54,394 bases of DNA, taken from contig NZ_ANOH01000428.1 in NCBI RefSeq assembly GCF_000346505.1, positions 1 through 54,394 on the forward strand, written 5' to 3'. Below the pieces are notes generated by a model. That model searched no databases, was not told the DNA's origin, and saw nothing but the letters and a program-made list of their open reading frames with translations. The stretch's first letter is position 1. Each line of letters begins with the position of its first letter. Below are positions 8,256 to 50,073 of the stretch, piece by piece. Made by a program: the position numbers and the translations under genes. This DNA comes from Aporhodopirellula sallentina SM41. GTDB taxonomy: Bacteria; Planctomycetota; Planctomycetia; Pirellulales; Pirellulaceae.

Positions 8256-8391
8256 CTAGTGGTGCGTCACGACCAAGAACGAGGGTTCAAGGCCGTAGCA
8301 AAAGTCGCCAAGACTTTCGGTGATTCACGAGCTCTCCCGAAACGCTTGGCGAGTTTCGCAACCCGAAAACGAGGCTTTGACGCACCACGAG
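8256..8391 (+). repeat. Palindromic element family A, copy 1 (128-bp core)
   Basis: The core runs 8260-8387, flanked by CTAG on the left and CGAG on the right. Ends are the perfect inverted repeat TGGTGCGTCA / TGACGCACCA. Inside are two related short hairpins, one around AAAGTCGCCAAGACTTT and one around GAAACGCTTGGCGAGTTTC. This copy has single mismatches in both inner stems. The same 128-bp unit occurs at 16886-17013 and, inverted, at 49942-50069. It carries no ORF that looks real. It lies in the gap between the vWA gene and the nitrate operon. Confidence 0.85.
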
Positions 8392-8620
8392 GGCTGTTGT
8401 AGCCAGAGGTCAGAGCAGAGACCGTGGGCGAATATCGCGATTTGGTGTCGGCCTCCGGCCTCTCATGATTGGACGTGCGGTCCGCTTCGCGGGAACGCGG
8501 CGATCGACATTACGCGCTCGTGAAATCGGTCCAATGTGAACTGGCCTGGCATTGCAACTCGGCCCGCACAACGCTGTTTGCGGTGACCGTGTTCCTCGAT
8601 GGTGTTTCGCGAGCTCTGCG
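8392..8620. other. Gene-free stretch downstream of the vWA gene
   Basis: No coding signal, clear terminator or RNA gene is visible between repeat copy A1 and the stop codon of the minus-strand vWA gene. Confidence 0.4.
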
Positions 8621-9982
8621 TCAGTTCACCTCGCGGAACTCGCCGCCAGTTTGCTCTGAGAGTCTTTTCAAGAACTCTTCGGTTAGCGGATTCACGCCGA
8701 CTCCGATCGTGTGAAACTTCAGGTGCCGCATTCGGTTGCGTCCCACGATGTCGCGAAGAATTGCATCGGGATGAGTCAACTTCCCAAACGTTGGCTGTCC
8801 GTCAGTCAGCACAAACACCACCTCCAGTTGATCGTCAAACTCGAGGGCATCCGACAAGACACCGTGCGTGTTTGTCTTGTCCCCCAGAGCGATCCGCTCG
8901 ACAAATGCGATCGCCTCGCGTTTGTTCTGTGGGTACGCGGGCAACAACTCTTCCTTCCACGCCTGCACCCGTGTGTCAAACAACATGATCGAAAACTCCG
9001 CCTCCGGTGGCAAATCATCAATCACGCGTACCAACTCACGTTTTGCGTTTTGCAAACGCGTATCGTACCGCGTCGGATGCTTCATGCTGCCGGAACGATC
9101 GATCACGAACAGCATCCGCCCTGCGTTGAGATTGATCCCGTAGTAGTGACTCTTGCTCAGCTTCAGCCCACCGGTGGACTCCGACGAAACGTCGTGCAAA
9201 GTCAACTTTCCAGACATCGCCGCGTCGCCGTTCATCGCAATATTGCCGGCGACGTTACCGTCAACAAAACTCACCGGTCGGACCAGCGAATCCGCAGGGT
9301 GCTGCTCGAGATACTGAGCATAGGCCTTGCGATCCCCGTCAAAGTCACGCACATCGACATCCGCGAGGCGATTGGCGATCTCATGACGCAACTGGCCCCG
9401 CAACTGTGAGTGCAATTGGTGCATGATTTCGATACTGCGTGGACAATGCAGTTGCGCCAGTGCCCTCACCAACGTGAACCGGTATGCGTACTGGTCCTCA
9501 AATTCAGACCGCATGATTTGATCCTGGAGCGACTCCACCGCAGCCTGGATTTCATGGCGGCCGACGAGATCCATTGCGATCATTGAAATCCGTCCATCGG
9601 TATGCTCGATCGCGTCGATGACGGTTGACCTCGCGTCTTCATTCGGACTCGCCGCGAATATCGCCAACAACTGATTCACGCTATCAGGAACAGACGATGG
9701 TTTCGCCGCTGGCTTTGCGGTCGCGTTGTCGCCACCGTCTTCCCGGTCGCTTTCGAAGGAATCGAGCAACAGCCGCGTCGCGGAAGTAACGACGTCCATG
9801 TTTTCGTACAACAGGTTCGGGTTCATGCGAAGCATCGCGACTGTTTTCAACCGCGCCGGTTCACTACGCCCGCTCAAGACGCGTGACATTCGTCGCTGCG
9901 CGGCAGTTTCTCCCACGGCGGGTTGCAACGACATCGCTGCGAACGCGACCAAAAAAACTGCGCAGACCTTCCACTTTCCCAT
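8621..9982 (-). CDS. Secreted von Willebrand factor A (vWA) domain protein
   Basis: About 453 residues from ATG 9982, chosen because it is preceded by GGGGGA and opens a clean signal peptide (MGKWKVCAVFLVAFAAMSLQPAVG); longer in-frame starts would bury that signal. After a helical, HEAT-like middle region with many Leu/Ala repeats (e.g. DAIEHTDGRISMIAMDLVGRH) comes the vWA fold. Its MIDAS motif is VIDRSGSMK (DxSxS), with the later metal-site residues in LGDKTNTHG and FVLTDGQPTFGK. vWA domains bind proteins through a divalent metal. Planctomycetes have many exported vWA proteins of unknown role. It is transcribed alone, away from the NMO-family gene. Confidence 0.8.
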   Translation of the reverse strand: MGKWKVCAVFLVAFAAMSLQPAVGETAAQRRMSRVLSGRSEPARLKTVAMLRMNPNLLYENMDVVTSATRLLLDSFESDREDGGDNATAKPAAKPSSVPDSVNQLLAIFAASPNEDARSTVIDAIEHTDGRISMIAMDLVGRHEIQAAVESLQDQIMRSEFEDQYAYRFTLVRALAQLHCPRSIEIMHQLHSQLRGQLRHEIANRLADVDVRDFDGDRKAYAQYLEQHPADSLVRPVSFVDGNVAGNIAMNGDAAMSGKLTLHDVSSESTGGLKLSKSHYYGINLNAGRMLFVIDRSGSMKHPTRYDTRLQNAKRELVRVIDDLPPEAEFSIMLFDTRVQAWKEELLPAYPQNKREAIAFVERIALGDKTNTHGVLSDALEFDDQLEVVFVLTDGQPTFGKLTHPDAILRDIVGRNRMRHLKFHTIGVGVNPLTEEFLKRLSEQTGGEFREVN

Positions 9983-10143
9983 CACCAATTCCCCCGTGCT
10001 TTGCAGTGCACCGGCCCGTGCTCGACCGATATCAAAGAACGATCTGATTCTAACGAAATAATGTCGCAGGCGAACAGAAAACTTCACTCTGTCGACGATT
10101 CATTTCGTGTCTGATGGCCGCGGCGTAATGTCTCATCCGCCCC

Positions 10144-10183
10144 CGAAAACCCTGCGAAAACAGCGGAAAACGCGGGGTTTTCG
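10144..10183. other. Imperfect hairpin in the divergent vWA/NMO promoter region
   Basis: Arms 10144-10156 and 10171-10183 pair at 12 of 13 positions, built around CGAAAACCC and GGGTTTTCG. The hexamer GAAAAC recurs three times within it. It lies in the intergenic space between two divergent genes, so it could be an operator or a structural element. There is no T-run on either side. Confidence 0.3.
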
Positions 10184-10348
10184 ACACCCGCGATTCGTCG
10201 TGACAGAACATTTACATTCCAGTGACCTGGCGCGAAGACGCCACTTTGGAAGACAGGCATAGACTGACGTTAGAACGCTTCCCAATCGCTGTCGGACGTT
10301 CGCTCGTTCTTCCATCTCGCACGGCCCAAACGCAAGGAACATTGCACC

Positions 10349-11875
10349 ATGGCACCCAAGGAAATTGCCCCCACCGCCTCGACGGAACACGCAGACCACG
10401 ACACAGCACAAAGAAAACCGACCATCATCCAAGGCGGCATGGGGGTTGCCGTTTCAGACTGGCGGTTGGCCCGATCGGTTGCACTCACCGGACAAATGGG
10501 CGTCGTGTCGGGCACCGCGATGGACACGGTTCTCGCACGTCGACTGCAAAACGGTGACCTGGACGGAAAGATGCGGCACGCGCTCGCGGAGTTCCCGTAT
10601 CCGAAGATGGCCCAGAAGATCATCGACCGATACTACATCGAAGGAGGCAAATCCGCGGACGCTCCCTACAAAGCCACACCGGTTGTTTCCCAGGCACCCA
10701 AGCAAGACCAACTCGAACTCGTAGTTGCGGCGAACTTTGTGGAGGTATTCCTAGCCAAGGAAGATCACGACGGGCTCGTTGGAGTGAACTTCCTCGAGAA
10801 AATCCAAACTCCCACACTCGCGTCGCTGTTCGGTGCGATGCTCGCGGGGGTGGATTACGTGTTGATGGGGGCAGGCATCCCGAGACACATCCCCGGCGTT
10901 TTGGACCGTCTCGCCGAGGGCGAAAAAGTCGAATACCCGCTGTACGTGCTCGACGCCCCAGCGGACGAACCGGTGGTCACCACGTTTGACCCGATGGAAT
11001 TTGGCGAAGGCGACATCCCCTGGATCAACCGGCCGAAGTTCTTAGCCATCGTTAGCTCAGCGACCCTGGCAAGCATGCTCGCCAAAAAGTCCAACGGCCG
11101 AGTCGACGGGTTCATTGTCGAAGGCGCCTCAGCAGGCGGACACAACGCGCCGCCACGTGGCAAAATGAAACTGAACGAGCAAGGTGAACCGATCTACGGC
11201 AAACGCGATGCAGTCGACCTCGATGCGATCGCGGCGATCGGTTTGCCGTTTTGGCTAGCAGGATCATATGGCACGCCGGAAGCGGTCCAGCAAGCACTCA
11301 CGACGGGCGCCTCCGGTGTTCAAGTTGGTACTGCGTTCGCCTTCAGCAACGAGTCAGGCTTGCTGCCGGAAATCAAACGCGACGTAATCGAACGATGCCG
11401 CAACGGATCGATTGAAGTTCACACCGATCCACTCGCCTCGCCGACCGGGTTCCCGTTCAAGGTCTTGCAGAAGCGCGGCACCGTTTCGGAAGAATCGGTC
11501 TACCAACAACGCCGTCGTGTTTGCGACCTCGGTTTCCTGCGACAGGCGTACCGAAAAGAAGACGGATCGACCGGTTGGCGTTGCCCCGGTGAGCCGGTGC
11601 AGAGTTTCGTCGCCAAAGGTGGCGAGGAGTCCGCCTGCGAAGGACGTAAATGCATTTGCAACGGATTGGTCGCGAACATCGGTTTGGGACAGACGCGTCG
11701 AGACGGAACGACTGAACCAGCGATCGTGACCTGTGGAGACGATGTGCAATCGATTTTGCAGTTCCTCGCCACACCGGAGGCGACCGAGTACTCAGCCCCT
11801 CAGGTCGTGCGTCACCTGCTCTCGGCAGTGAGTCCGCGGGAAACGTCGCAGTCGCCCGCGATGGTCGCGGTATGA
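10349..11875 (+). CDS. Nitronate monooxygenase / 2-nitropropane dioxygenase family flavoprotein
   Basis: A 508-residue FMN-dependent TIM-barrel protein. The N-terminus IIQGGMGVAVSDWRLAR is the family opening. The phosphate/FMN site appears as GFIVEGASAGGHN, with the family His, and GVQVGTAFAFSNESG. It is longer than typical nitronate monooxygenases (about 330-380). The extra C-terminal part holds cysteines in CPGEPVQ...ACEGRKCICNGL, which I recognise from a COG2070 subgroup and which may bind metal or form disulfides. It has AAGGAA about 11 bases before the ATG. A small intergenic hairpin lies upstream and repeats follow. Substrate is unknown; an enoyl-reductase-like role is also possible. 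Confidence 0.78.
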   Translation: MAPKEIAPTASTEHADHDTAQRKPTIIQGGMGVAVSDWRLARSVALTGQMGVVSGTAMDTVLARRLQNGDLDGKMRHALAEFPYPKMAQKIIDRYYIEGGKSADAPYKATPVVSQAPKQDQLELVVAANFVEVFLAKEDHDGLVGVNFLEKIQTPTLASLFGAMLAGVDYVLMGAGIPRHIPGVLDRLAEGEKVEYPLYVLDAPADEPVVTTFDPMEFGEGDIPWINRPKFLAIVSSATLASMLAKKSNGRVDGFIVEGASAGGHNAPPRGKMKLNEQGEPIYGKRDAVDLDAIAAIGLPFWLAGSYGTPEAVQQALTTGASGVQVGTAFAFSNESGLLPEIKRDVIERCRNGSIEVHTDPLASPTGFPFKVLQKRGTVSEESVYQQRRRVCDLGFLRQAYRKEDGSTGWRCPGEPVQSFVAKGGEESACEGRKCICNGLVANIGLGQTRRDGTTEPAIVTCGDDVQSILQFLATPEATEYSAPQVVRHLLSAVSPRETSQSPAMVAV

Positions 11876-11889
11876 GAGCGGAGTCCAGC

Positions 11890-11989
11890 CGTAGCCGGAG
11901 TCGTCAAGACTCCGGTCCGGAAGACCTCCAAAAACCCTAGCAAGAACGTCCGTTGTGTCGCTGCCTGAACTCTGGCGAGTCCAACTACG
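11890..11989. repeat. Imperfect palindromic element (family C), about 100 bp
   Basis: The ends 11890-11912 and 11967-11989 are inverted repeats matching at 15 of 23 positions, mostly with transition differences, sharing CGTAG and GGA-TCG-CA blocks. The left end also holds a perfect 8-bp hairpin CCGGAGTC / GACTCCGG (11895-11915). It lies just after the NMO-family gene in a convergent gap. Only one copy is seen in this window. Confidence 0.45.
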
Positions 11990-12126
11990 AAGAGTGCCTT
12001 CGGACAATCCAAATTGCAGAACAGACAAGCTTAGACAGGCGGTTGATCGCATGGGAAACCCGGAGGCCAACGACAAGGTACTCGCCCGACGCGCAAGCGA
12101 GTGATTGTGAGTGATCCCACGCTAGC

Positions 12127-12272
12127 CGGGCTGTTGATTCATTCATCTAACAGCAATACCGTTCAATTTTCGTTTAACCCGTGCCCGAAGGGTAGGTTGT
12201 GTTCCGTCAAGCGTCGCCTACGGCTGCCGGTTAAACGAAAACAGGTTGACTCTTTATAAAATCAACAGCCCG
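12127..12272. repeat. Nested inverted-repeat element (family B), 146 bp
   Basis: Outer arms CGGGCTGTTGATT (12127-12139) and AATCAACAGCCCG (12260-12272) are perfect 13-bp inverted repeats. Inner arms TTTTCGTTTAACC (12167-12179) and GGTTAAACGAAAA (12229-12241) are also perfect over 13 bp. A GTAGG/CCTAC pair lies further inside. No ORF fits. It abuts the family E element that begins at 12273. Single copy in this window; the architecture resembles a MITE or large REP-type element. Confidence 0.7.
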
Positions 12273-12376
12273 TAGAGCGTTTCTGATAAGGATGTAGCCG
12301 ATGTCGACAGATTTCGGTGGACTGAATTCAGGCGAATATAGTTACAGGATCAGCCCGTCAGACTTCAAAACGCTAT
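12273..12376 (+). repeat. Element family E, copy 1 (about 104 bp)
   Basis: Begins TAGAGCGTTT and ends near CAAAACGCTAT. Over the first 36 bases it matches the reverse complement of 19519-19626 at about 29 positions, and similarity continues with small gaps to the other end. The shared ends TAGAGCG / CGCTCTA are short inverted repeats (degenerate at the right end here). It directly follows element B with no spacer and reaches to within 30 bp of the prmC stop. Confidence 0.65.
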
Positions 12377-12406
12377 CGCGTGGGCGGATGCCGGCGGGTG
12401 ACGCTC

Positions 12407-13306
12407 TCAAGATTCCGACAAACCGAGTGAGATCGTTCGCTGCAGACCGGCGAGGTCACGGATGCGTTTGATGTCGGTGTAATGCCCGGTGGTTTCGGCG
12501 ATCTGTTTGCACTCGTCGGCAATCATTGGGCTGTATTCAATGATCAGTCGTCCGCCGGGATACATCCAGGCCGGAGCCTGTTCAAAGATACGCTCAATGA
12601 TTTCTGTCCCCTTATCGCCCGACAACAACGCACCGCGTGGTTCGTGTTCACGCACGGTTGCGGGCAATTCGTCGTACTCACTTTGACTGATGTACGGCGG
12701 GTTGCTGCAAATCACATCAAACTTTGCACCTTCTTCGAGTGCATCAAACAGATCGCTCTGCAATAACGTCACCCGATCGGCGAGGCCCAACTTCTCGACG
12801 TTCCATCGAGCGATTTCGAGCGCCGCGAGTGAGACATCTACCGCCGTCACCTCGGCGTCAGGCAGGTTCTTGGCGATGGCGATCGCGATCGCGCCGCTAC
12901 CGGTGCCGATATCGAGAATCCGCAACGGCCGATCTTGGATCGTGGGGGCGAGCAGTTTGGCCCGATCGATCGCTTCGACGACGAGATGCTCCGTTTCCGG
13001 TCGCGGAACGAGGACGTTCTCATCAACGCGGATGGGAATCGAGTAGAACTCGCGGAAACCGACGAGCTGCGCGACCGGGGCTCCCTCGCCGCGACGGCGG
13101 ACGAGTTCGCGAAACGCGATTCGTTCTTCCTCGGAGGGGACTTCGGCGAAGGCGGTGTACAGTTCGATCCGTTCGCAACCACGTGCGTGGGCGAGCAGGA
13201 TCTCGGCATCCAATCGCGGCGATTCACTGCCACGTGTTTTGAAAAAGTCTGCCGTCCACTGCAACAACCGCAGCACGGTCCATGGTTCGGTGCTGGGGTT
13301 AGTCAT
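12407..13306 (-). CDS. prmC: Peptide chain release factor N5-glutamine methyltransferase
   Basis: A 299-residue class I SAM methyltransferase that methylates the glutamine of the GGQ motif in release factors. An N-terminal helical domain is followed by the SAM site ILDIGTGSGAIAIA and the catalytic CSNPPYIS (NPPY), which holds the substrate glutamine. The C-terminus has GALLSGDKGTEIIERI, also typical. Length matches the family (about 277-300). It lies 45 bp downstream of prfA, its substrate gene, on the same strand, as in many bacteria. Confidence 0.95.
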   Translation of the reverse strand: MTNPSTEPWTVLRLLQWTADFFKTRGSESPRLDAEILLAHARGCERIELYTAFAEVPSEEERIAFRELVRRRGEGAPVAQLVGFREFYSIPIRVDENVLVPRPETEHLVVEAIDRAKLLAPTIQDRPLRILDIGTGSGAIAIAIAKNLPDAEVTAVDVSLAALEIARWNVEKLGLADRVTLLQSDLFDALEEGAKFDVICSNPPYISQSEYDELPATVREHEPRGALLSGDKGTEIIERIFEQAPAWMYPGGRLIIEYSPMIADECKQIAETTGHYTDIKRIRDLAGLQRTISLGLSES

Positions 13307-13351
13307 GGGAGCACATCCGTTGCCGAAAGAAGAGAAATCCCTCGATCCGCC

Positions 13352-14434
13352 TTAGTCGATCATATCGCCACGGAGTTGATCGCGGTCGTATTCGATAAGG
13401 GCTTCAGTAACGGGGGTGAGATCGCCACCGATAATCTGATCGAGCTTGTAGAGAGTCAGGTTGATACGGTGGTCGGTGAGGCGGTTCTGTGGGTAGTTGT
13501 ACGTACGGATCCGCTGGCTCCGGTCTCCCGATCCGATCAGACCTTTGCGAGCCTCGGCTTGCTTGGCGTTCTCTTCTTCTCGCTTCTTTTCGTAGACGCG
13601 GGCCTTGAGAACACGCAGGGCCTTGGCCAAGTTTTTGTGTTGGCTCTTCTCGTCCTGACACTGAACCACGATGCCGGTTTCATAGTGCGTCAAACGGATC
13701 GCCGACTCAGTCTTGTTGACGTGCTGACCACCAGGCCCGGACGCGCAGAACTTGTCGACGCGGTAGTCATCCGACTTAATGTCGACTTCAACATCTTCCG
13801 GTTCGGGCATCACTGCAACGGTTGCCGCGGAGGTGTGAACACGTCCTTGGGTTTCGGTTTCGGGCACGCGTTGGACGCGGTGACCACCGGATTCGTATTG
13901 CAAATCGCGGAAGACGTTTTCGCCTTCGAGCGTCAACGTGATTTCCTTGAACCCGCCCATTTCGGTAGGGCTGGCTTCCATCACCTCGGTTTTCCACCCA
14001 ACCTGTTCGGCATGCCGCCGGTACATTTCATAGAGGTCGCGGGCGAACAAAGCCGCCTCATCGCCTCCGGTACCGGCGCGGATTTCCATCACGCACCGTG
14101 TGCGGTGAGAATCATCACCACCGACGGTGTAAGTGAGCAGGTCTTCCCAGAGAGTCTCTCGCTGCGAACGCAACGATTTCATCTCGGTTTCGGCCATTTC
14201 GCGTTCTTCGAAATCGTCAGTCGCCTCTGCCATTTCCTGGCAGTCCTGGATTTCCTCGCTGAGCCGTTTGAACTCGCGATATTTCCCGACGACTTTCGCC
14301 AACCCACCATGCTCACGGGCGGTGGCACTCATACGAGCACCATCGCCGAGCACATCCGGGTCGGACATGTCAGTTTCGAGCTGAACGAAACGCGCTAGCT
14401 TTTCCTCAAGGTTGTCGCGGATCGATCCGCTCAT
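13352..14434 (-). CDS. prfA: Peptide chain release factor 1
   Basis: A 360-residue RF1 that terminates at UAA and UAG. It has the catalytic [15 protein letters not shown] with GGQ, and the codon-recognition region [23 protein letters not shown]. The tripeptide anticodon of RF1 is PxT; here it is PET rather than the common PAT/PVT, a variation also seen as PDT in some other phyla. Distinguishing it from RF2 (SPF) is therefore straightforward. The start ATG overlaps the rpmE stop (ATGA), giving the order rpmE-prfA-prmC. Confidence 0.95.
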
Positions 14435-14676
14435 TTGCCAGCTTTCTTAGCCTTCTTTGGCTTTTGAAGGCTGCCATAAGTACCGGCAGCGAACTTCTTC
14501 TGGAACTTATCGATACGTCCGGCGGTGTCGACGTACTTCAGTTTACCGGTGTAGAACGGGTGACATTCGCTGCAGATGTCAATCTTCAGCTCGGGGCGGA
14601 CGCTTCGCGTCGTGAAGCTGGCGCCGCAACCACACGTAACGGTGGTCTCTTGGTAATTCGGATGGATGCCGTCTTT
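14431..14676 (-). CDS. rpmE: 50S ribosomal protein L31
   Basis: An 81-residue zinc-containing (C+) L31. It starts [19 protein letters not shown] and has the second Cys pair in [12 protein letters not shown]. The C-terminus is a Lys-rich tail of PKKAKKAGK type. I use the ATG at 14676 because it gives the normal L31 start; a longer frame from 14790 adds 38 unlike residues. The stop overlaps the prfA start by ATGA. Confidence 0.95.
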
Positions 14677-14894
14677 CATGACTGTATACACAAAAAAATG
14701 GGCGGATTGGGGCGCGTTGCTCGGCTGAGAACGCGGATTGTTCGAGAATTCGAATCGCAGATAGTACGCGACAAACGCCATTGAGTTCAAGGGCTGCCGC
14801 GTTCAGATCAGCAGTAAAGCCAGTATCAAACGCCGACAAGGGGCCGATCGTAGGGAAGAGGCCACACACCGCGATCCCCCCAACTGGTCACCTA

Positions 14895-14936
14895 CCCGGT
14901 CAAGCAAACCAGATCCCCGGTCGAGCAAACCAGACG
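14895..14936. repeat. Tandem pair of 21-bp units
   Basis: Units 14895-14915 and 14916-14936 begin CCCGGTCAAGCAAACC and CCCGGTCGAGCAAACC and differ at three positions in total. They sit between the divergent rpmE and lepA genes, so they may be part of a promoter region or simple duplication. Confidence 0.5.
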
Positions 14937-15043
14937 AGCGTTCGTCCCGTTTTGGCAATGGCCACCGGAAACGGGATTGGATAGGATTCTCGTTTGGATC
15001 GAATTTCGCTCGGTGATCCCCCTATCCCACAACCTTCCATCGT

Positions 15044-16841
15044 ATGAAACACATTCGGAACTTTTGCATTATCGCCCACATCGATCATGGAAAGTCGACG
15101 CTGGCGGATCGTTTAATCCAAGCCTGCGGCGGAGTCACCCAGCGCGAGTTCCACGATCAGATGCTCGATTCGATGGATATTGAGCGGGAACGCGGGATTA
15201 CGATCAAGAGCAACACCGTCACCCTGAGCTACACCGCGAAAGATGGCCAGGAATATCAGTTCAACCTGATCGACACCCCCGGCCACGTGGACTTCTCCCA
15301 TGAAGTTCGCCGGTCGCTGATGGCGTGCGAGGGTGCCCTGATGGTGGTCGATGCCTCGCAGGGCGTGGAGGCTCAAACGGTCGCGAACCTCTATCTGGCT
15401 CTCGAATACGACCTCGAACTGCTCCCGGTGATCAACAAGATCGACCTTGCCAGCGGCCGACGTCGAACGGGTACGCGAAGAAATCGACTCCGACCTCGGC
15501 CTCGATCCGTTCGCGGCGATCCCGGTCTCGGCCAAAACCGGACAGGGCATCGAAGACGTGCTCGAGGGGATCGCGACGCAGTTGCCGCCGCCCGAAGGCG
15601 ACCCCAAGGCACCGCTGAAGGCACTGATCTTCGACGCGTTCTTCGACAAATACCGCGGCGTGATTTTGCAGTGCCGCGTGATCGAAGGGACGCTCAAACC
15701 CAAAGACACGATCCACTTCATGCACACCGATCGCGATTTCCTGGTCGACGAACTCGGGTACAACCAATTCAAACTCGTCCCCAAGAAGCAGCTCGCCGCG
15801 GGCGAAGTCGGCTACATCGTCGCCGGCGTCAAGAGTGTGCAGGATATCGAAATCGGGGACACGATCACCCTGGCCGATCGCCCCGCCGACGAACCGATCC
15901 CGGGCTACCTGCCCGCCCGGCAAGTCGTCTTCTCATCGATCTATCCGATGAGCACGGACGAATACCAGGATCTCACCAAGGCCCTCGAGAAGCTGTCGAT
16001 CAACGACGCCGCGTTGACGTTCGAAAAGGACTCCTCGGCGGCACTCGGATTCGGCTTTCGATGCGGATTCCTCGGCCTGCTGCACCTCGACGTGATCCAG
16101 GAGCGACTGCAACGCGAGTTTGACATCGGACTGGTCATCTCGGCCCCGTCGGTCAGCTACAAACTGACGCTCAAAGACGGCTCAACGATCGACGTCGACA
16201 ACCCGAGCTACTGGCCCGATCCGACCAACATCGACTCCGCCAGCGAACCGTACATCCGGGCTCAAATCCTCACACCGGAAGAATACGTCGGCCCGGTGAT
16301 GGAATTGTGCCGCGAACATCGCAGCGAAAGCCAAACGATGAACTACCTGGCCGCCGGCCGGGTTGAAGTGGTCAGCGAAATGCCGCTCGGCGAAGTCCTG
16401 TTCGACTTCTACGGCAAACTGAAAATGATCACCCGCGGCTACGGGTCGTTCGATTACGTGCCGATCGAATACCGCAAAACGGACATCGTCAAAGTCGACA
16501 TCCTGGTTAACAAAGAACCAGTCGATGCGTTGGCGTACCTCGTGCACCGCGAAAAGTCTCGCGCCCGCGCGTTGCATTACTGTGAACAACTCGCCGAAGA
16601 GATTCCGCGTCACCAGTTCAAGATCCCGATCCAGGGAGCAATCGGCGGCACCGTCATCGCCCGTTCGACGATCCAAGCGGTCCGCAAAGACGTCACGGCC
16701 AAATGCTACGGTGGCGACATTTCCCGAAAGAAAAAACTGCTCGAAAAGCAGAAGAAGGGGAAAGCCAAGATGAAGCAGTTCGGCAGCGTCAATATTCCGC
16801 AAAAGGCATTCGTCTCGGTGCTGCGGGCGGACAAAAAGTAA
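15044..16841 (+). CDS. lepA: Elongation factor 4, with an apparent one-base frameshift
   Basis: Ribosome back-translocase GTPase. The first frame (from 15044) encodes [15 protein letters not shown] (P-loop), [10 protein letters not shown] (switch I), DTPGHVDF and NKIDL. At 15446-15449 the frame must shift: after L135 the expected [14 protein letters not shown] continues only in the +1 frame, which then runs open to 16841. That part carries domains II-V and the C-terminal basic tail ([17 protein letters not shown]). Total length is 1,798 bp, exactly one base more than 599 codons, and nothing is missing from the family alignment by eye. A single extra T or G in CTTG explains it. Likely causes are a sequencing error, a recent mutation, or recoding with tRNA-Leu slipping from CUU to UUG. 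Confidence 0.88.
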
Positions 16842-16881
16842 CCGCGACCCTACCCTGTCAAAAAAGGGCGTCTGAGCTAAC

Positions 16882-17017
16882 CTAGTGGTGCGTCACGATC
16901 AAGAATGAGGGTTCAAGGCCATAGCGAATGTCGCCAAGACTTTCGGTGATTCACGAGCCCTCCCGAAACTCTTGGTGAGTTTCGCGACCCGAAAACGAGG
17001 CTTGGACGCACCACCAG
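16882..17017 (+). repeat. Palindromic element family A, copy 2 (128-bp core)
   Basis: The core runs 16886-17013, with CTAG before it. Left end TGGTGCGTCA; right end GGACGCACCA, one base different from the perfect inverted repeat. It shares most positions with copy 1 (8260-8387), including CACGA-CAAGAA near the left end and CCAAGACTTTCGGTGATTCA in the first hairpin. It begins 41 bp after the lepA stop. Confidence 0.85.
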
Positions 17018-17052
17018 TACGCCGACGTAGCTTGGTTTTTGCATAGGCCGTA

Positions 17053-17102
17053 GTGGATCTCGTGAAAGATCCTCATGCAGCAGGATCTTCCACAAGACCC
17101 AC
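17053..17102. repeat. Long-stem hairpin element (family D), 50 bp
   Basis: Arms 17053-17073 and 17082-17102 pair at 18 of 21 positions around an 8-base loop CATGCAGC. The inner 12 bp (GTGAAAGATCCT / AGGATCTTCCAC) differ at one position. It lies 35 bp after element A2 and upstream of the MFS gene. It lacks a T-run, so it is better read as a REP-type element than a terminator. A longer reading of the MFS ORF would start inside it. Confidence 0.55.
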
Positions 17103-42547: not shown

Positions 42548-42566
42548 AGTCGGTCGATGCCTCAGA

Positions 42567-43079
42567 TCAAGACGCGCGAGACGAAACCGATGCGTCCGAC
42601 GCCGGCGGGCAATCCGCCGACTGTTCGTCGGCGGTGCTGACCGTGGACTCGATCGCACAGATTTTGTCGACGCGGGTACCGTGCCGCCCGGCTTCGAATT
42701 CGGTTCGCAACCACATCAGGACGAGATCATCGATCGGACGCTCGCCGATCAAGTCGCCGGGAAGGCAGAGAACATTGACATCATTGTGCCGCCGTGAAAT
42801 TTCGACCATCACCTCGTCATAACACAGCGCGGCCCGGACACCTGGAAATTTGTTGGCAACAATTGACATACCGATCCCGGTGCCGCAGATCAAAATCCCG
42901 CGGTCCAGATCGCCTTCGGAGATGCGTCCAGCAACCTTCATCGCGAAATCCGGGTAGTCGACCGGATCCGCGGTATCGGTGCCTTCATCGCAGACGTCGA
43001 ACCCCGCAGATGTCAATGTTTGCAGCAATCTCGCCTTGATATGTACCCCGCGATGATCACTCGCTATCCCAACTCTCAA
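42567..43079 (-). CDS. rpiB: Ribose-5-phosphate isomerase B
   Basis: A 170-residue enzyme of the pentose phosphate pathway. It starts MRVGIASDHRGVHIK (DHxG motif) and has GILICGTGIGMSIVANK, with the active-site Cys in ICGTG. A 20-residue Ser/Ala-rich C-terminal extension is longer than usual. TTG 43079 is preceded by a strong GGAGGG site, which overlaps the end of the upstream fusion gene. Only 11 bp separate them. Confidence 0.93.
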   Translation of the reverse strand: MRVGIASDHRGVHIKARLLQTLTSAGFDVCDEGTDTADPVDYPDFAMKVAGRISEGDLDRGILICGTGIGMSIVANKFPGVRAALCYDEVMVEISRRHNDVNVLCLPGDLIGERPIDDLVLMWLRTEFEAGRHGTRVDKICAIESTVSTADEQSADCPPASDASVSSRAS

Positions 43080-43090
43080 AATAACCCTCC

Positions 43091-44395
43091 TCAGGAATTG
43101 CTCGATTCGTCCTTGCTACCGGGCCCATTATGGCCCTCGAGAGATTCTGTGTCAGATGTTTTTGGGAAAAAATCGTCATCTAATGCGTCGAGCCACTTCT
43201 CCAGCTCGTCCCGAATTTGATCCGCACACTGCTCGTAAACGTCCACCGGCATGCCGACAGGGTCACTTACGTCCCCCCCGTCACGACGGAGCGTGAAGAC
43301 ACGGTCCTTGCGATCCGGCCACGCAGCCAGAATCGCATCCCGGTGCCTCCGAGTGAGCGTCAAAACCAGGTCCGCCATCGACATCAGGGGGTCATCGAGC
43401 GGCTGGCTGCAGTGGCCCGTGAGATCCAATCCGCGGCGGCCCATGACCTCCACCGACTGCGGGCTCGCCCCGCTGCCTCGTTGAGCGGCCACACCAGCGG
43501 AAAGCACCCGAGCGACGTCCTCACGGCCGAATCGGCGGTGCAGGAGGTCTCTCAACAGGGTTTCCGCCATCGGGCTCCGGCAGGTATTGCCGGTGCACAC
43601 GATGACAATCACTGGTTTCGCAAACTGATTCATAGCGGCTCGCTGGATCACCCCTTCGCGGAGGAGATGCCAAGAATTTCCTGTAACTTGAACAATCGTA
43701 CCCACACCACCATAACGACTCACGCCGTCATCGAGCAGGACGGGCAGCGGATTGCCTCCCATAACACTGCACAAATGAGCATCGAGTCTCTCCGCCGTCG
43801 AGATCGCTTGACCGCCCTCCTGCGAAAACTCAGCCCAGACGAGCGGCGCCGACAAATACCGGTGGATATGGCTGAGCAATCGGTGGTTGGAAACCCGAAA
43901 CGCGATTGGTAACGACGATCCCGTGGACTCCCCGGAATCGGAATCAGCCGGTGCCGCAAAACGCTGCAGGACGGACAATACCGATTCGGGCAACATGCCC
44001 GCCGCCGAAACCGACGGATCGCACTCGGAAATCAGCGTCAGCGGGCCCGGAAAACAGCGTTCGCTCAGCCGCCGGGTCAGTTTCGTCCGCGGGACGAGGT
44101 AATCCCCCGCCGCATCGCTGCTGCGAAGACAAAGTGCGAGTTGTCCCGGCACAATCCCGGGGGAGAGTCGATCCGCCGTCGTCGCGGACGAACCGGTTTC
44201 CTCATCGGAATCATCGCGTCGGGTCGCGTTGACCATCGCCGCGATCCGTTCAACGGCCTCCGGGCAGAGCGCACTGGCGACGACTCCGTAGACCGTCTCG
44301 CTGGGCAGCCCGATGATGTCCCCTTCGACGAGTGTTTGGACGCTGCGGTGGACGATATCTCGCGGGTCGTCGGTTTGCTGCAGGTCGTAAATCAT
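43091..44395 (-). CDS. Fusion of a TsaC/Sua5-like domain and a YwlE-type protein phosphatase
   Basis: A 434-residue two-domain protein. The N-terminal half (about 1-250) has the YrdC fold with GLPSETVYGVVASALCPEA and FPGPLTLI. But residues that TsaC uses for ATP and threonine are missing: no KxRP at the expected site (NATRRDDSDE) and no SAN in the second half (VWAEFSQEGG). The C-terminal half (about 262-400) is a low-molecular-weight phosphatase with P-loop C267-TGNTCRS and acid D378-P379. Thr271 replaces the Ile of tyrosine phosphatases, the residue that marks the Bacillus arginine phosphatase YwlE. rpiB is next, giving the ywlC-ywlE-ywlF order. Phosphoarginine removal is the likely reaction. 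Confidence 0.82.
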   Translation of the reverse strand: MIYDLQQTDDPRDIVHRSVQTLVEGDIIGLPSETVYGVVASALCPEAVERIAAMVNATRRDDSDEETGSSATTADRLSPGIVPGQLALCLRSSDAAGDYLVPRTKLTRRLSERCFPGPLTLISECDPSVSAAGMLPESVLSVLQRFAAPADSDSGESTGSSLPIAFRVSNHRLLSHIHRYLSAPLVWAEFSQEGGQAISTAERLDAHLCSVMGGNPLPVLLDDGVSRYGGVGTIVQVTGNSWHLLREGVIQRAAMNQFAKPVIVIVCTGNTCRSPMAETLLRDLLHRRFGREDVARVLSAGVAAQRGSGASPQSVEVMGRRGLDLTGHCSQPLDDPLMSMADLVLTLTRRHRDAILAAWPDRKDRVFTLRRDGGDVSDPVGMPVDVYEQCADQIRDELEKWLDALDDDFFPKTSDTESLEGHNGPGSKDESSNS

Positions 44396-44560
44396 TCGCG
44401 GTGAATTTTGGGGAAGAGAAGCACCAAGGATTCTATTTGCAATTCGACTCGATCCGTTCGCCCAAAACTACAGATACGTTCGGATCCGCAGAGAAGCTCT
44501 GTTCCGCCGTTCGGCTCGAATTCACATAGGCTCGGGTTTGCTGGGCCGGTCGGTTATCCT

Positions 44561-45580
44561 ATGTCGATGACGAATGCCTATCCAGTACGCGAAGAACGCC
44601 CCAACCGTCGAAAATGTTTGGCGACGTGGGCTGCCGCTCTCTCCGTTCCGCTGATCCTTCCCGCAACCGGCTGCGTTTCGACGGGCGGGCCGAGCCCAGT
44701 GGATCTCGTCTGGGGCCGCCGGGGACTCAGCGACGGTCGCTTTCTAAAACCTCGCGCGATCACCATCGACCCCGATGACAACCTGTACATCGTCGACACG
44801 ACCGGTCGCATCCAAGTGTTCGACGTCGACGGCAATCACCTGCGAACCTGGAAAGTTCCCGACACCGCCAACGGACGCCCCACCGGGTTATCGTTCGACA
44901 AACGAGGCGGTTCCGGCGAAGCCAACGGGCCCCCCGAACCGCGCTTGCTCGTCGCCGACACACACTACTATCGCATGTTAGTTTTCAGCCCCGATGGTGA
45001 ACTGCAGGACGATCAACAAATCGGTGGCGTCAGTGGATCGGCCGACGGTGAGTTCGCGTTCGTGACCGATGCGGTCAGTGACCAACAGGGCAACGTCTAC
45101 ATTGGCGAGTACGGTGCCTCGGACCGGATTCAAAAGTTCTCCGCCGACGGCGAATTCATTGCATCGTGGGGCGGAACCGGCGAAGAACCAGGACGTTTCC
45201 TACGGCCGCAAAGTTTGGTCATCGACGGCGAGACACTTTGGATCGCCGACGCATGCAATCATCGCATCGTCCGGTATGACCTCAACGACGAAACGCCACA
45301 GATGATCGGGATCTGGGGCGACGAAGGAAAATCCCCCGGCAAACTGCATTACCCGTACGACCTCGCGATCGACCGCGACGGAACGGTTTTGATATGCGAA
45401 TACGGCAATCAACGCATCCAACGATTTACCGCCGAAGGTGAACTCGTCGGCGTATGGGGTTCGCCCGGACACGATCCCGGACAGTTGTATCAACCTTGGG
45501 GCGTCGTGATCGACTCCTCCGGTCGGGCCCACGTCCTCGACAGCAACAACCACCGCGTCCAACGAGTCACCGCAATCTAA
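44561..45580 (+). CDS. NHL-repeat lipoprotein
   Basis: A 339-residue protein. The N-terminus NRRKCLATWAAALSVPLILPATGC combines a twin-arginine-like RRKCL with a lipobox ending in ATGC, so it may be exported folded. At least five NHL blades follow, each with a strand such as LYIVDTTGRIQVFD, LLVADTHYYRMLVFS, WIADACNHRIVRYD, LICEYGNQRIQRF and HVLDSNNHRVQRV. It forms a six-bladed propeller that typically binds other proteins or polysaccharide. ATG 44561 is chosen over longer frames. It stands divergent from the fusion gene and convergent with DUF502. Confidence 0.8.
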   Translation: MSMTNAYPVREERPNRRKCLATWAAALSVPLILPATGCVSTGGPSPVDLVWGRRGLSDGRFLKPRAITIDPDDNLYIVDTTGRIQVFDVDGNHLRTWKVPDTANGRPTGLSFDKRGGSGEANGPPEPRLLVADTHYYRMLVFSPDGELQDDQQIGGVSGSADGEFAFVTDAVSDQQGNVYIGEYGASDRIQKFSADGEFIASWGGTGEEPGRFLRPQSLVIDGETLWIADACNHRIVRYDLNDETPQMIGIWGDEGKSPGKLHYPYDLAIDRDGTVLICEYGNQRIQRFTAEGELVGVWGSPGHDPGQLYQPWGVVIDSSGRAHVLDSNNHRVQRVTAI

Positions 45581-45625
45581 GGCGGTTTCAAAAACGATGA
45601 GCAACCAGTGTCGACAGAGACTCGA

Positions 45626-46672
45626 CTACTGAGCCTGGCCCGCAGGAACCGATGTATTCACACTGGCCCCATTCATGACCGCTTTGCCGGAGTTTTCTTT
45701 CGCTGGCAAATCGAAACGTTGTTGAGGCGGAACGACCACACCGCAACTGACAACGAACTGGATCGCTTCATCAATCGTCAAATCCAAATCGATCGCTTCG
45801 CTGCGTCGCACCGTAACGGTGAACCCGGTCATCGGCATCGGACTGGTCGGCATCAAGACGCTCAACATTGGTTCGCCGGCCGCCTCGGATATCTCACGCA
45901 TGCTGTTGCCCGTGACGAATCCCAACGACCAAATCCCTTCGCGTGGATACTGAATCGCCACGACTCGGTTGAATTCGATCTGACGATCATCAAACGCAAA
46001 GTCGGTGATCTGTTTGACGCTACCGTAGACCTTGTTGACGATCGGAATCCGCAAGATCGTTGCGTCGAACGTGCTCAAGAACCATCGCCCGATACCGCCG
46101 GCAAAAAGACGCCCGAGGAAATACAACAGCGACAGGAACACGATCAAGAAAACAGGGACAACCACCGATCGTGGCATGTACCGCAGTTGAACGTAACGAT
46201 CCCAGTAGGCGGCGGCTGAATTCGGCGCGACCGCGGTCAACCCGAACTCATCGATCTCGTTGTCGACTTCCTGAACCACGTAACCGGGCAGATAGCGACG
46301 CCCGGTTGGGTCCGGTACGTAGTACAGTCCTTGATAGGTGAATCCGCGTCCCTTGCCGCCTTCGGCGATCGCTGACTGAGGGTCTCGCAAAGCCCCTTTG
46401 GGGACGCTCTCGCGAATATCGGCGAGACTCAAGACCAGCGTTTTACGGATGCCCGTTTCGACCGGGGCGAGGACATAGTTCTCGATCGCGTTCCACGCCC
46501 AAATCAACACCACGATGGTTAACAGCGGCGGCAGGACGACCCCCAGACCTCGCAACACCGCACGACGGGCACCACCCATCGCTGTGGTCGGCGCAGCAAC
46601 CAAAACAGCCTCTTCCGAAGCAGCGGTCGAATGCGATTCGCCGTGAGCAGGCGGGTCCTGAGGGTTTGTCAT
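45626..46672 (-). CDS. DUF502 family membrane protein
   Basis: 348 residues. A first membrane segment is LRGLGVVLPPLLTIVVLIWAW and the second is VVVPVFLIVFLSLLYFLGRLF. Between them is an external insertion of about 110 residues (YQGLYYVPDPTGRRYLPGYVV). The C-terminal DUF502 part has RIPIVNKVYGSVKQITDF and the strand VVAIQYPREGIWSLGFVTG. The family is widespread in bacteria with unknown function. The promoter region carries a palindrome at 46703-46714. Confidence 0.82.
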   Translation of the reverse strand: MTNPQDPPAHGESHSTAASEEAVLVAAPTTAMGGARRAVLRGLGVVLPPLLTIVVLIWAWNAIENYVLAPVETGIRKTLVLSLADIRESVPKGALRDPQSAIAEGGKGRGFTYQGLYYVPDPTGRRYLPGYVVQEVDNEIDEFGLTAVAPNSAAAYWDRYVQLRYMPRSVVVPVFLIVFLSLLYFLGRLFAGGIGRWFLSTFDATILRIPIVNKVYGSVKQITDFAFDDRQIEFNRVVAIQYPREGIWSLGFVTGNSMREISEAAGEPMLSVLMPTSPMPMTGFTVTVRRSEAIDLDLTIDEAIQFVVSCGVVVPPQQRFDLPAKENSGKAVMNGASVNTSVPAGQAQ

Positions 46673-46702
46673 GAAGTCAGCCGGATCGGATTGGTCCAGT
46701 AT

Positions 46703-46714
46703 CGAAACGTTTCG
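46703..46714. promoter_or_regulatory. 12-bp palindrome upstream of the DUF502 gene
   Basis: CGAAACGTTTCG is perfectly symmetric and lies about 30 bp before the ATG of the DUF502 gene on the minus strand. A related CTATCGAAAA follows. It may be an operator, but the half-site is short. Confidence 0.3.
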
Positions 46715-46926
46715 CTATCGAAAAGAACGCGGTACTAAAACGCGTTTGCGGTCAAACCGGGGTGAAGAAAAGCCCCAGACTACAAAATCCGGCTCACCCC
46801 ACAATCTGCCCATTTGGAAAACTGTAGCACGTGAACGCGGATGTAAAAGCGATAACGGCGACAAAGTCGGTCGGGTTGAACCGAATATCCGCTTTTTTCT
46901 CTACCACGCAACGCCAATCATCTCGG

Positions 46927-48033
46927 TCAATCGTCTCGCAACGCCATCGCGACGACGGCGAGCGAAACTTTGCCCGCACCGGCCTCCAACAGCACCCCCG
47001 CGATCTCATCCGCGGTCGCTCCCGTGGTCATCACGTCATCGACGAGGACGATCTCACGGCCGGCAATCAGCTTCCTCGCCCTCGCCCGAACTCGAAACGC
47101 ACCGCGCACATTCGCACGCCTTTCCTCGTCATCGAGCAACGCTTGTTTGGAAATGGATCGGCACGCCCTCAACAACGCCGCATACGGCAGCCCCCAGAAA
47201 CTCGCGGTGTACTCCGCGAGAATCCGAGTACCGCTGCCGCCTCGACGCACCTGACGCAGCCACGGACTCGGAACACTGGTCACCACGGGAACGCCTCGCG
47301 GCGGCAGACGGTTTCCACTGAGGACAATCCGCCCGGCCTCTCGGGCGAGCGAGCGCACCATGGATCCAGCCGAGGTCGGCGCGGGGTTCTCGGTTTGTTC
47401 CGGATTCTTCCCCGGCGATTCCGGCTTCTCCTCCAATTCCGGCCACCGCGACAAACAACGCGCGGCCAAACGACTCGCCAAATCACGAGCCACGACGGAG
47501 TTGTGAGGGTATTTCGCTGCCACCACCGCATCCCGCGCCACGTCGTGATAACGATACAGCGGGGTGATTCGTTGAAACCGATGAGCCCGCTTGGCGTTCT
47601 TGCATCGCGCGCAGGGAGCATCATCCGGTGCCGCCTCGAGATCCGGTGAATCCTCGAGTTCGGTTGGCAAACCGAGGTCGCGATCGATGCGGTCGGCCGA
47701 GGGCACGCGGGGCGTTCGAGCCGCTCGGGGCCATCCGCATTTCCCGCACGCCGTCTGCATCATCGGTGCCGACTGAATCAATGACGCTTCGCAAACCCGG
47801 CAGAACGTTCGGTACTGCCTCGGCGGCACAGCTCGCCCCGCCCCGGTTCCACGCTCTGCCCCTGTCTCGACCATATCGGTCGCGGCTCCACAGAGGACGC
47901 AGACCGGTGGGAACACCAACGGGGCAACTGACTCCCACGCCTGCAGAACCGATTGCCGCGACCGATGAGCGAGACGTGCGACAGTGGAGCTTTGGTGATT
48001 CAAACGCAGTCTCTCCCCTGCGTCCGTCGGCAC
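46927..48033 (-). CDS. comF: ComF-family phosphoribosyltransferase-like protein
   Basis: Up to 368 residues. N-terminal cysteines (PPVCVLCG, CRVCEASLI, CGKCGWP, PCARCKNA) form the zinc part usual for ComF, here with long insertions. The PRTase core ends with IVLVDDVMTTGATADEI, the PRPP loop. ComF links to DNA uptake and processing in Bacillus; in most bacteria the role is unclear. The start is not certain: GTG 48033 or the TTG at 48003, which has GGGGAG upstream. No other competence genes are in the window. Confidence 0.78.
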   Translation of the reverse strand: MPTDAGERLRLNHQSSTVARLAHRSRQSVLQAWESVAPLVFPPVCVLCGAATDMVETGAERGTGAGRAVPPRQYRTFCRVCEASLIQSAPMMQTACGKCGWPRAARTPRVPSADRIDRDLGLPTELEDSPDLEAAPDDAPCARCKNAKRAHRFQRITPLYRYHDVARDAVVAAKYPHNSVVARDLASRLAARCLSRWPELEEKPESPGKNPEQTENPAPTSAGSMVRSLAREAGRIVLSGNRLPPRGVPVVTSVPSPWLRQVRRGGSGTRILAEYTASFWGLPYAALLRACRSISKQALLDDEERRANVRGAFRVRARARKLIAGREIVLVDDVMTTGATADEIAGVLLEAGAGKVSLAVVAMALRDD

Positions 48034-49275
48034 CGTACACGAAACCCGCTGGTTGCACGAAACCCGCTAGCGACGGGCGTCAATTCGTCGGCATTACGCG
48101 AGGAATTGGCGACATTCAGCGGCGTCGGTATTCGAAAAGTCGCACCATGCCAAAATTTCCCCCGAGCCGCCGATGCGACGTTTTGGCTCCTCATCGAAGC
48201 AGAAAACATTGACGAACCCCCCGTGAATTGCTTCGTTTTCGCGAAACGTCATCCGCTCGCTCGAAAACATATTTGAGAATTTTACAAATTTTCCTGCTAG
48301 CCGCGCGAACCTTCTGCTGAAATAGTCTTCTAAACCATCGTCTCACCGATGGCCCTTTTGGGGTATTGCCATTCGGGGCAGCGACCTCCTCGGGGGAGAC
48401 TCGGACATTGATACCGAGGCTCGTGAGATTCATTTCCAATATGTGCTCCAAAACCGCACCATCTCAATAGGTGCCGGGAGGATCCGATGCGAACTCTGAT
48501 TTCCAAACTGAACGTCATTCGTGCGACCCGCGTCAGCGGCATCTTGTGCAATGGTTTCGTCGGAATGGTGTCGCGCATTACGACCCTCACCGAGAGACTC
48601 GCGGATACCAGTTGGCGGGCCTATGCGGCTCATCATGCTGAACGCCCCGAGATGTTTTGGAAGCCTCTTCATGCCAGTGTCGGCAGCATCCCTGCCGTCA
48701 TAGGACGTGAGAAACATTCAGCGTTCTCACGCGGGACGGACCTAACGTGTCCGTCACAGTCGCGATGTTGGGGTTACCCCCAATCGATGGAATTCAAAGG
48801 CCGTTCGGTACTCCGAACACGCATGCCGGCGAATTCGACAGGCACGGGATTCCACGCAGCGGGCTAACGCCCAAACGACGGAAACCGCGTTTTTTGACTC
48901 GATCGATTTCATCGGGCTGGCCTCGATAAATCTTGGCCTCGATGGATGTTGCCCCTAGGCGACCTCTCCCGTCGGTCCTGACCGCTGACTCGTTTCAGTC
49001 AATTTCGAACGAACTTCGCACCCACGGATAGGCCCTATCCGATTCGGCGCCCCAACACCTGTTCCTTCAGGCCATGTGACTGTTCCGACAGTCGTTTCAC
49101 CATGAAGGCAGAGAAGAGGCTCCCAATCGCAGATCGGTCCAAACGGCCGAATCAGCCCATCCGTTCGAGTGAAGATCGCCTGACTCAATCGCACTTCCTA
49201 CATCGAATCTTTGAATCACTTCACTGGCAGTTTGAAAATTGGAACGCCCCTTCGCCTCAGGGGGAGAAACTCATC
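48034..49275. other. Long intergenic region between comF and the ECF sigma gene
   Basis: About 1.2 kb with no confident gene. It holds promoters for both divergent neighbours, a short hairpin CCATCG/CGATGG at 48335-48352, and a symmetric GGATAG-GCC-CTATCC at 49028-49042, which could be a regulator site. One small open frame (48487-48867) is listed separately. No RNA gene was recognised. Confidence 0.35.
48487..48867 (+). CDS. Possible small hypothetical protein
   Basis: 126 codons with a GGGAGGA site 5 bases before the ATG. The first 60 or so codons have GC-rich third positions like the neighbours, but the last part is less gene-like and rich in Arg, Ser and Cys. I recognise no domain. The good ribosome site is the main reason to list it; it could be a decayed gene or chance. 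Confidence 0.22.
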   Translation: MRTLISKLNVIRATRVSGILCNGFVGMVSRITTLTERLADTSWRAYAAHHAERPEMFWKPLHASVGSIPAVIGREKHSAFSRGTDLTCPSQSRCWGYPQSMEFKGRSVLRTRMPANSTGTGFHAAG

Positions 49276-49941
49276 ATGACGATTACGTACAACACTGAAA
49301 CACAAACTCCGATCTTGCCGATCAACTCTGCCGTCGACCAAGCACCGTTGACGGTGGCACAACTCGTCGTCCAAGCCCAATCGGGTGACCGGGACGCGTT
49401 CGGAGAATTGTTCGAACGATACCGGCCCGCGATTGTCGCCTTGGCAATGCAGCGAGTCCGCAACGCCCACGAAGCCGAAGAACTCGCGCAAGACGTTTTC
49501 ATCCAAGCGATGCAAAAAGTCGACCAACTGCGAGTCCCGGAAGCATTCGGCGGATGGTTGCGGCAAATCGTTCACCGCATGGCGATCAACCGCGTCACCC
49601 GCGGTCGTCTTTCGGTGGCCTGCGATCCAGAAACCCTGGAAGCAACCTGCACCGATGATGCATCGCCTCAAACCGCCGCCGAAGCTCAAGAGCGAGACGC
49701 AGCGGTTCGGGTCGGCCTGACTCGGCTCGGTGACATGGATCAACAAACCCTGCGGGCGTTCTACCTGCAAGGCCAATCGTTGATCGAAATGAGCGACCGG
49801 TTCGACGCGCCCGTCGGAACGATCAAACGACGATTGCACACCGCACGGAAACGTCTCGCCGAAACCATGCGGACGGACTTTCCGGCAACGGTGCCGATGA
49901 ACCTCCCGGTTCATGAGGTCGCCGTTTGCCAAGCCGTCTAG
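49276..49941 (+). CDS. ECF-type RNA polymerase sigma factor
   Basis: A 221-residue sigma-70 family protein. Region 2 is DAFGELFERYRPAIVALAMQRV with the -10 contact helix AEELAQDVFIQAMQKVDQL. Region 4 is LRAFYLQGQSLIEMSDRFDAPVGTIKRRLHTARKRLAE. ATG 49276 has GGGGAG upstream; longer frames to 49102 look untranslated. No anti-sigma gene adjoins. The stop codon TAG (49939-49941) overlaps the CTAG flank of repeat A3, and the element fills the gap to the convergent giant gene. Confidence 0.88.
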   Translation: MTITYNTETQTPILPINSAVDQAPLTVAQLVVQAQSGDRDAFGELFERYRPAIVALAMQRVRNAHEAEELAQDVFIQAMQKVDQLRVPEAFGGWLRQIVHRMAINRVTRGRLSVACDPETLEATCTDDASPQTAAEAQERDAAVRVGLTRLGDMDQQTLRAFYLQGQSLIEMSDRFDAPVGTIKRRLHTARKRLAETMRTDFPATVPMNLPVHEVAVCQAV

Positions 49942-50073
49942 TGGTGCGTCAAAGCCTAGACTTAGGGTAGCGAAACTCGCCAAGAGTTTCGGATGGGCTC
50001 GTGTATCACCGAAAGTCCTGGCGACTTTCGCTACGGCCTTGAACTCTCATTCTTGATCGTGATGCACCACGAG
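49938..50073 (-). repeat. Palindromic element family A, copy 3 (128-bp core, inverted)
   Basis: The core runs 49942-50069. Reading the plus strand, it begins TGGTGCGTCA and ends TGATGCACCA. Its reverse complement matches copies 1 and 2 along the whole length. Both internal hairpins are perfect here: CGAAAGTC-GCCAG-GACTTTCG and CGAAACTC-TTGGC-GAGTTTCG (in element orientation). Flanks are CTAG and CGAG as in copy 1. The CTAG contains the stop codon of the sigma factor gene. Confidence 0.88.

Follow-up and report, generated by a model that had tools for sequence, protein, structure and literature searches.

The 54,394-nucleotide stretch analysed here (hereafter the window; positions 1 to 54,394 of contig NZ_ANOH01000428.1, forward strand, from Aporhodopirellula sallentina SM41) carries three copies of a small non-coding element with terminal inverted repeats. 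The element is read, with a probability of about 0.88, as a non-autonomous transposon of the IS630 / Tc1-mariner type, that is, a miniature inverted-repeat transposable element (MITE), enclosing a core that resembles a REPIN, a doublet of repetitive extragenic palindromic (REP) hairpins. The copies and their parts are as follows.

8256..8391, + strand: MITE copy 1, left CTAG, right CGAG; in the intergenic region separating an NMT1-like gene from a VWA-domain gene
8259..8269, + strand: copy 1, left terminal inverted repeat, GTGGTGCGTCA
8378..8388, - strand: copy 1, right terminal inverted repeat
8295..8320, + strand: copy 1, core hairpin 1, GTAG tag, loop GCCAA
8337..8362, + strand: copy 1, core hairpin 2, the inverted partner, loop TTGGC
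16882..17017, + strand: MITE copy 2, left CTAG, right CCAG; 40 bp past the lepA stop and upstream of an MFS gene
16921..16946, + strand: copy 2, core hairpin 1, tag changed to ATAG
16963..16988, + strand: copy 2, core hairpin 2, loop TTGGT
49938..50073, - strand: MITE copy 3, inverted; CTAG at 49938-49941 includes the TAG stop of the sigma-factor gene 49102-49941
50009..50034, - strand: copy 3, core hairpin 1, loop GCCAG
49967..49992, - strand: copy 3, core hairpin 2

The initial annotation, made from the letters alone, had described three 128-bp copies, one of them inverted. This description holds: the TGG...CCA span is 128 bp in each, and pairwise identities are 125/136, 118/136 and 119/136. 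The constant length also claimed is exact for the window copies and approximate in the genome as a whole, where the 37 full copies with readable ends measure 128 bp in 22 cases, 127 bp in 7 and further off in 8. With 128 bp inside its CTAG-type ends the element is too short for a transposase gene. CTAG had been placed on the same side in all three copies, which is correct for the + strand of the window and incorrect relative to the element; copy 3 is inverted, so that its CTAG lies at the opposite end from that of copies 1 and 2, and which end bears CTAG varies from copy to copy.

Element ends, copy number and empty sites

Read from the outside inwards, the left and right ends of the element are alike, CTAG-TGGTGCGTCA, and over 65 ends of each side conservation drops sharply at the C. 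Matching ends were sought by a search for the transposase domain PF13358 in 12 relatives, followed by an inverted-repeat search around each match; 20 matches were obtained across 10 genomes. The congener G005 carries a full IS630-family insertion sequence (IS) of 1228 bp (G005:C52; L366:536-1763), bounded by CTAGTGGTGCGTCA and, at its opposite end, by CTAGTGGTTCGTCA. Its likeness to the MITE comprises the terminal CTAGTGGTGCGTCA and about 20 further inward bases, 28 of 34 end bases being equal to the MITE consensus at the left and 27 of 34 at the right. A covariance model built on 26 copies of the element detects both ends of this IS, through model positions 1-32 (E 0.0045) and 104-136 (E 0.044). 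The second open reading frame of the IS scores 117.6 bits with the NCBIfam IS630 model NF033545 (cut-off 100) and 68.7 bits with Pfam DDE_3 PF13358 (cut-off 28.6); the first contains HTH_32 and HTH_23 and, taken alone, falls under the IS630 cut-off. Four IS630 copies with CTAGTGCTTTGTCA ends and similar subterminal boxes are present in G018. CTAGTG-type ends occur at 6 of the 20 PF13358 loci of the relatives, with CTAG on both sides in those six, which were selected by their ends and of which four represent one IS. The earlier suggestion of a MITE- or REP-like element served by a transposase elsewhere is borne out in both halves, by MITE ends, a REP-like middle and an IS630 IS with matching ends in G005.

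An IS630-family transposase supplied in trans would bind the CTAGTGGTGCGTCA...AGGGT ends, excise the element and insert it at the TA of CTAG, as has been reported for IS630. In place of a transposon body the element has a REPIN-like module of two inverted, GTAG-tagged hairpins, which planctomycete genera have in common independently of the ends; inserted copies drift.

The host genome (8.19 Mb, a 491-contig draft) contains many copies. BLAST with copy 1 gave at least 43 places (40 of 228 candidates scored), the covariance model gave at least 144 matches (150 of 3185 candidates scored), and a pattern search for hairpin 2 that tolerated up to 3 mismatches yielded 240 matches, compared with 1 for the reversed pattern, so that the genome-wide copy check proposed in the initial annotation came out positive. 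When 83 candidates were scored in every genome, the model found 82 matches in the own genome, 6 in G003 and 2 in G009, the two relatives that align best over the window. Matches above 110 bits number 37 places in the own genome and 1 in 12 congeners (in G002). Of the other genomes searched, 11 of 12 from the genus had at least one model match, as did, outside the genus, 4 of 12 from the family and 1 of 15 from the order. A plasmid and phage search with copy 2 gave no match.

Clustered copies were observed in G002 at L116 (G002:C1:1907162-1908340) and L117 (G002:C1:3753585-3754105); in one of these the copies recur about every 348 bp. A pair of copies 2.4 kb apart in G023, considered as a composite transposon, is a tandem duplication of host DNA. 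Four contigs that begin within the core (L236, L237, L240, L241) were considered as breaks at a longer transposon, of which their first 260 bases show none, and unpaired repeat matches at C189 and C263, where no element was seen, were taken as chance.

Places corresponding to 23 copies were fetched from G003 and/or G009, and for the window copies and their neighbours from several congeners as well. None of these 51 corresponding or neighbouring loci matches the element at E 0.01, some aligning on one side only, whereas the identical search found all 23 of the own loci; the empty-site check in relatives that had been suggested at the outset thus favours mobility. The site of copy 3 reads GCCGTCTAG in the window and GCCGTTTAG in G003. 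The sigma-factor gene ends there in GCCGTC-TAG in the window, with the TAG in the element edge, and in GCCGTT-TAG in G003; it stops at the same codon in G009 also, as TGA. By eye, relatives have a stop at the matching codon at L019 (TAG in both), L025 (TAA and TAG) and L156 (TGA in G003), and a CTAG-like tetramer at the insertion place at L024 and L029 (CTAG in G003), L138 (TTAG and CTAA) and L009 (CTAA in G009). At L029 both sides align, G003 having GAAACGCT-CTAG-CC and the own genome GAAACGCT-CACG-element-CTAG-CC. L010 was rejected as an exact empty site, the CTAG of the relative aligning 11 bases off. An empty site was not obtained for copy 1, where the gene order of G003 is broken and the two sides in G009 are on separate contigs, nor was an exact one seen for copy 2, the intergenic region of G003 being too diverged. 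Around 8256 the gene order itself differs between the own genome and G003.

The hairpin core

The core comprises two hairpins arranged in mirror fashion, GTAGCGAAAGTC-GCCAA-GACTTTCGG followed by CCGAAACTC-TTGGC-GAGTTTCGCTAC, and forms an inverted doublet with a short spacer. The loops of hairpin 1 are GCCAA, GCCAA and GCCAG in copies 1, 2 and 3, as the proposed GCCAR predicts; those of hairpin 2 are TTGGC, TTGGT and TTGGC, so that the proposed TTGGC is correct for two of the three. The two hairpins are also able to pair with each other over their full length with two mismatches, at positions that form perfect pairs in the local hairpins. The paired hairpins recognised initially are present, and in single-stranded DNA folding each window copy clearly outdoes its shuffles (z of -4.9 to -5.7; none of 200 shuffles reached the same level). 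Among the 26 copies, base pairs are kept no better than in shuffled columns (local 89.1 vs 89.2%, long-range 88.7 vs 88.8%), which indicates that individual copies drift and on which an RNA fold conserved in every copy was rejected; the structured RNA site offered as an option in the initial annotation is not upheld in that form. Across subfamilies, double-change cells (left/right pair omitted), a count inflated by shared ancestry, compare with shuffles as 18 vs 5.8 in the own genome (0/300), 9 vs 0.8 in named loci (0/300) and 2 vs 1.1 in relatives (93/300); compensating stem changes thus exceed the shuffled level in the own genome and the named loci and do not in the loci of the relatives.

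The exact 26-base core half was found in at least 80 stretches of an 84,980-genome collection. The titles listed for these are, as far as can be judged, those of planctomycetes, including Kuenenia, Fuerstiella and Pirellula-type genera, which belong to that phylum. The mirror half lies at most 60 nt away in 61 of 85 occurrences (up to 5 substitutions allowed). Between organisms the mirror half (hairpin 2) is 91.7% alike over 49 full-flank rows and 831 pairs, a figure raised by the 5-substitution limit and drawn from rows of which 26 belong to one species, and the 30 nt outside the core on its two sides agree at 26.5 and 27.3%, no more than unrelated DNA does. Since the core is alike across genera and its surroundings are unrelated, it has the appearance of a module of its own. 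The frames around it vary, being CTAGTG..CACTAG-like in several cases and not recognised in others; in Rubripirellula obstinata the frame is TTAGTGGCGGGAAAATTG..GCCACTTA within a longer inverted repeat. The GTAG tag at the hairpin foot is intact in 152 of 217 hairpin instances in own-genome loci, and GTAG at the feet of inverted hairpin pairs is described in PMC3733652 and PMC3116915 as marking REP families and the HH dimers they form. The core is likely a separate REP-type mobile unit that was captured by the MITE. A more far-reaching and rather doubtful idea is that of a chimera, in which one REP-type hairpin pair in several unrelated frames would have been spread by two unrelated transposition machineries, one of them acting on a DDE (IS630) MITE, with the loops as the landing site of another element and the GTAG hairpins functional, for example as a signal for the transposition machinery or the host, and not filler.

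Another small element, with lengths of 117 to 309 bp and ends GGGCTGTTGATTTATTCG / CGGTTTGTCGATTTAATC, is inserted in core hairpin loops of the own genome (among other loci at L028, L052, L057, L063, L121, L123-L126, L128, L129, L157, L158, L165, L166, L168, L169 and L245). Of 29 rows, 26 are distinct inserts, three loci having counted on both strands; 21 of the 26 lie in a hairpin loop, a share biased by the way these loci were chosen, as surroundings of the MITE, and 17 of the 26 show an exact 5-bp loop duplication (TTGGC or like). A similar insert occurs in another genus, in the hairpin 2 loop at L345 of Neorhodopirellula pilleata, as TTGGC followed by ...GGCTTGTTGACTTAATCG.

The hairpins admit an alternative in which the whole unit is a REP/REPIN, or bacterial interspersed mosaic element (BIME), moved as single-stranded DNA by a REP-associated tyrosine transposase (RAYT; Y1, HUH), with the outer repeats as part of the fold. 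An inverted hairpin pair tagged with GTAG on the outside of each member is the published hallmark of REPs, the copy number is high, the stems covary across subfamilies, and Y1 transposases with other GTAG hairpins exist in the genus. A Y1_Tnp search covered the own genome and 10 relatives, and 93 of its 106 matches were examined, 13 being left out. The core was found near 2 of the 93 (L385, L399), 0.7 to 1.2 kb from the Y1 gene and on one side only, with about 1.2 expected from the density of the family. It was found near none of an initial subset of 33 Y1 loci; no RAYT gene flanked by a matching REP was found among the 93, and a home-made Y1 profile found no Y1 gene in 80 named core-bearing loci. 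Movement of the entire unit by a RAYT was rejected on the chance-level association and the lack of flanking on both sides, and the ends match those of IS630-family IS; this origin is considered improbable.

REP/Y1 pairs of ordinary appearance do occur in the genus, a simple scan without shuffled control placing some GTAG hairpin at 12 of 33 Y1 loci. Relatives have RAYT-like Y1 loci with GTAG hairpins of their own at L252, L253, L254, L257, L262, L265, L267, L271 and L272, for example GTAGCTCGGGGCGGAAGCCCCGAG and GTAGCCATTGGCGTTAGCCAATGG. In the window, a GTAG-tagged hairpin-like stretch of a different family (GTAGTGGATCTCGTGAAAGATCC) lies directly past copy 2, at 17050-17072. On the other side of that copy, lepA (15044-16841) is present as two overlapping open frames meeting near 15450, and its G003 orthologue is a single frame; the split is either a genuine frameshift or a sequencing error.

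Target junctions and stop codons

Outside-in, the tetramer at the ends of the element is conserved at C in 91/74%, at T in 71/72% and at A in 77/63% (left/right, 65 ends each). A preference of IS630 for the TA in CTAG is the subject of a title cited within PMC2170065, and the IS630-related ISY100 is described, in the part of that article used, as inserting almost exclusively at TA, which is duplicated. For a longer target duplication 175 length/offset combinations were scanned, and the values obtained (z up to 3.7) were not taken as a signal. CTAG occurs 38 times in the window, against 203 expected by base composition and 47 by a Markov estimate. A frame of at least 600 nt terminates in the element edge in 16 of 65 copies; counted by ends, such frames stop at 16 of 91 element ends, compared with 17 of the 204 ends that belong to the remaining CTAG sites of these loci. 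Under the IS630 mechanism, insertions would often fall exactly on TAG stops, with the stop preserved, because CTAG is rare and at times provides the stop of a gene; the overlap of element ends and stop codons is largely a consequence of the target.

Several observations weigh against an IS630-type MITE. A single IS was found with the identical 14-base end. The PF13358 search of the own 491-contig draft revealed no IS630 transposase bearing these ends; of its three partial matches one exceeds the cut-off, none lies beside the element and none resembles the G005 transposase, an absence that is weak evidence because the assembly is such a draft. Lower-scoring members are numerous in the congeners G002 (76 matches), G010 (71) and G011 (46), mostly as other subfamilies, so that the family taken together extends beyond the host genome. 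A two-sided exact empty-site alignment is available for L029 alone, with a left match of just 8-9 bases. Duplication of the TA is the hallmark of IS630; among 37 copies with both ends readable, TA is present on both sides in 6, on exactly one in 24 and on neither in 7; in the youngest 12 copies these numbers are 3, 9 and 0.

The junctions could be explained by a site-specific recombinase with a 2-bp crossover, which would insert a circular form into CTAG and leave the target TA at one junction and a donor dinucleotide at the other. The 24 of 37 copies with TA at exactly one junction suit this view, as does the finding that no non-TA dinucleotide is directly repeated in any of the 37; L029 keeps the ancestral CTAG at one junction and has CACG at the opposite one, and altered TA is in excess even among the youngest third, with 9 altered out of 24 ends vs 3.3 predicted from the rest of the repeat (p 0.003). 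The six end-selected IS630 copies with CTAGTG ends nevertheless have CTAG on both sides, as do, among the matches listed (60 of 97), the five copies with both ends shown in the metagenome-assembled genome NP86, and the TA states at the two ends are compatible with independence (Fisher p 0.11), so that a recombinase is regarded as very improbable. Decay was rejected as the cause of the altered TA because the excess is present in the youngest third. The preferred guess is a survivor bias, in which a copy flanked by two intact junctions would move on and one with a single damaged junction would remain.

The least probable explanation, a structured regulatory RNA or terminator selected at gene ends, has in its favour the strong folding and the 16 of 65 copies that adjoin the 3' end of a long frame, but is largely dismissed by the absence of an Rfam match in the window at gathering scores, by pairing that is kept no better than in shuffled columns, by the absence of the element from the places fetched from relatives, and by a stop enrichment of about twofold that is largely explicable by target choice.

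Relation to known repeats

With the IS630 family, represented by the G005:C52 IS and the four G018 copies, the element shares CTAGTG..GTCA ends, subterminal boxes and the CTAG target; it differs in having no transposase, in its REPIN-like body and in the TA that is usually altered on one side. The Correia repeat enclosed elements of Neisseria are likewise small, high-copy and non-coding. In the excerpted descriptions of them the terminal repeat starts TATAGTGG, compared with CTAGTGG here; the host phylum is another one, and the terminal repeats diverge past TAGTGG.

REPINs and GTAG-REP HH dimers (Bertels and Rainey 2011, PMC3116915; Di Nocera 2013, PMC3733652) share with the core an inverted pair of GTAG hairpins, a short spacer and a high copy number, and R. 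baltica is named there as a carrier of different REP families. The loop of the element has 5 nt, compared with 2-3 in many families published so far, IS630 ends enclose the core, and in the loci examined the core has no RAYT link. CGTC, the mark of the CGTC-REPs (Di Nocera 2013), also occurs within the element ends, but inside the outer repeat and some 25 nt away from the tag of the hairpin, not at the hairpin foot. Among the entries listed by searches of an open-access library, no description of this element family, or of an IS630 MITE combined with a REPIN-like core, was found. The kind of element is already known; the combination was not met among those entries.

A planctomycete repeat is tied by its ends to a named transposon family, and a REP-like hairpin pair is carried in an IS630 frame with no RAYT-type link in the loci examined. 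The high copy number, the nearly element-free closest relatives and the landings on stop codons make this a good natural system for studying how small elements spread without gene damage, and one also suited to asking whether REP hairpins are passengers or working parts.

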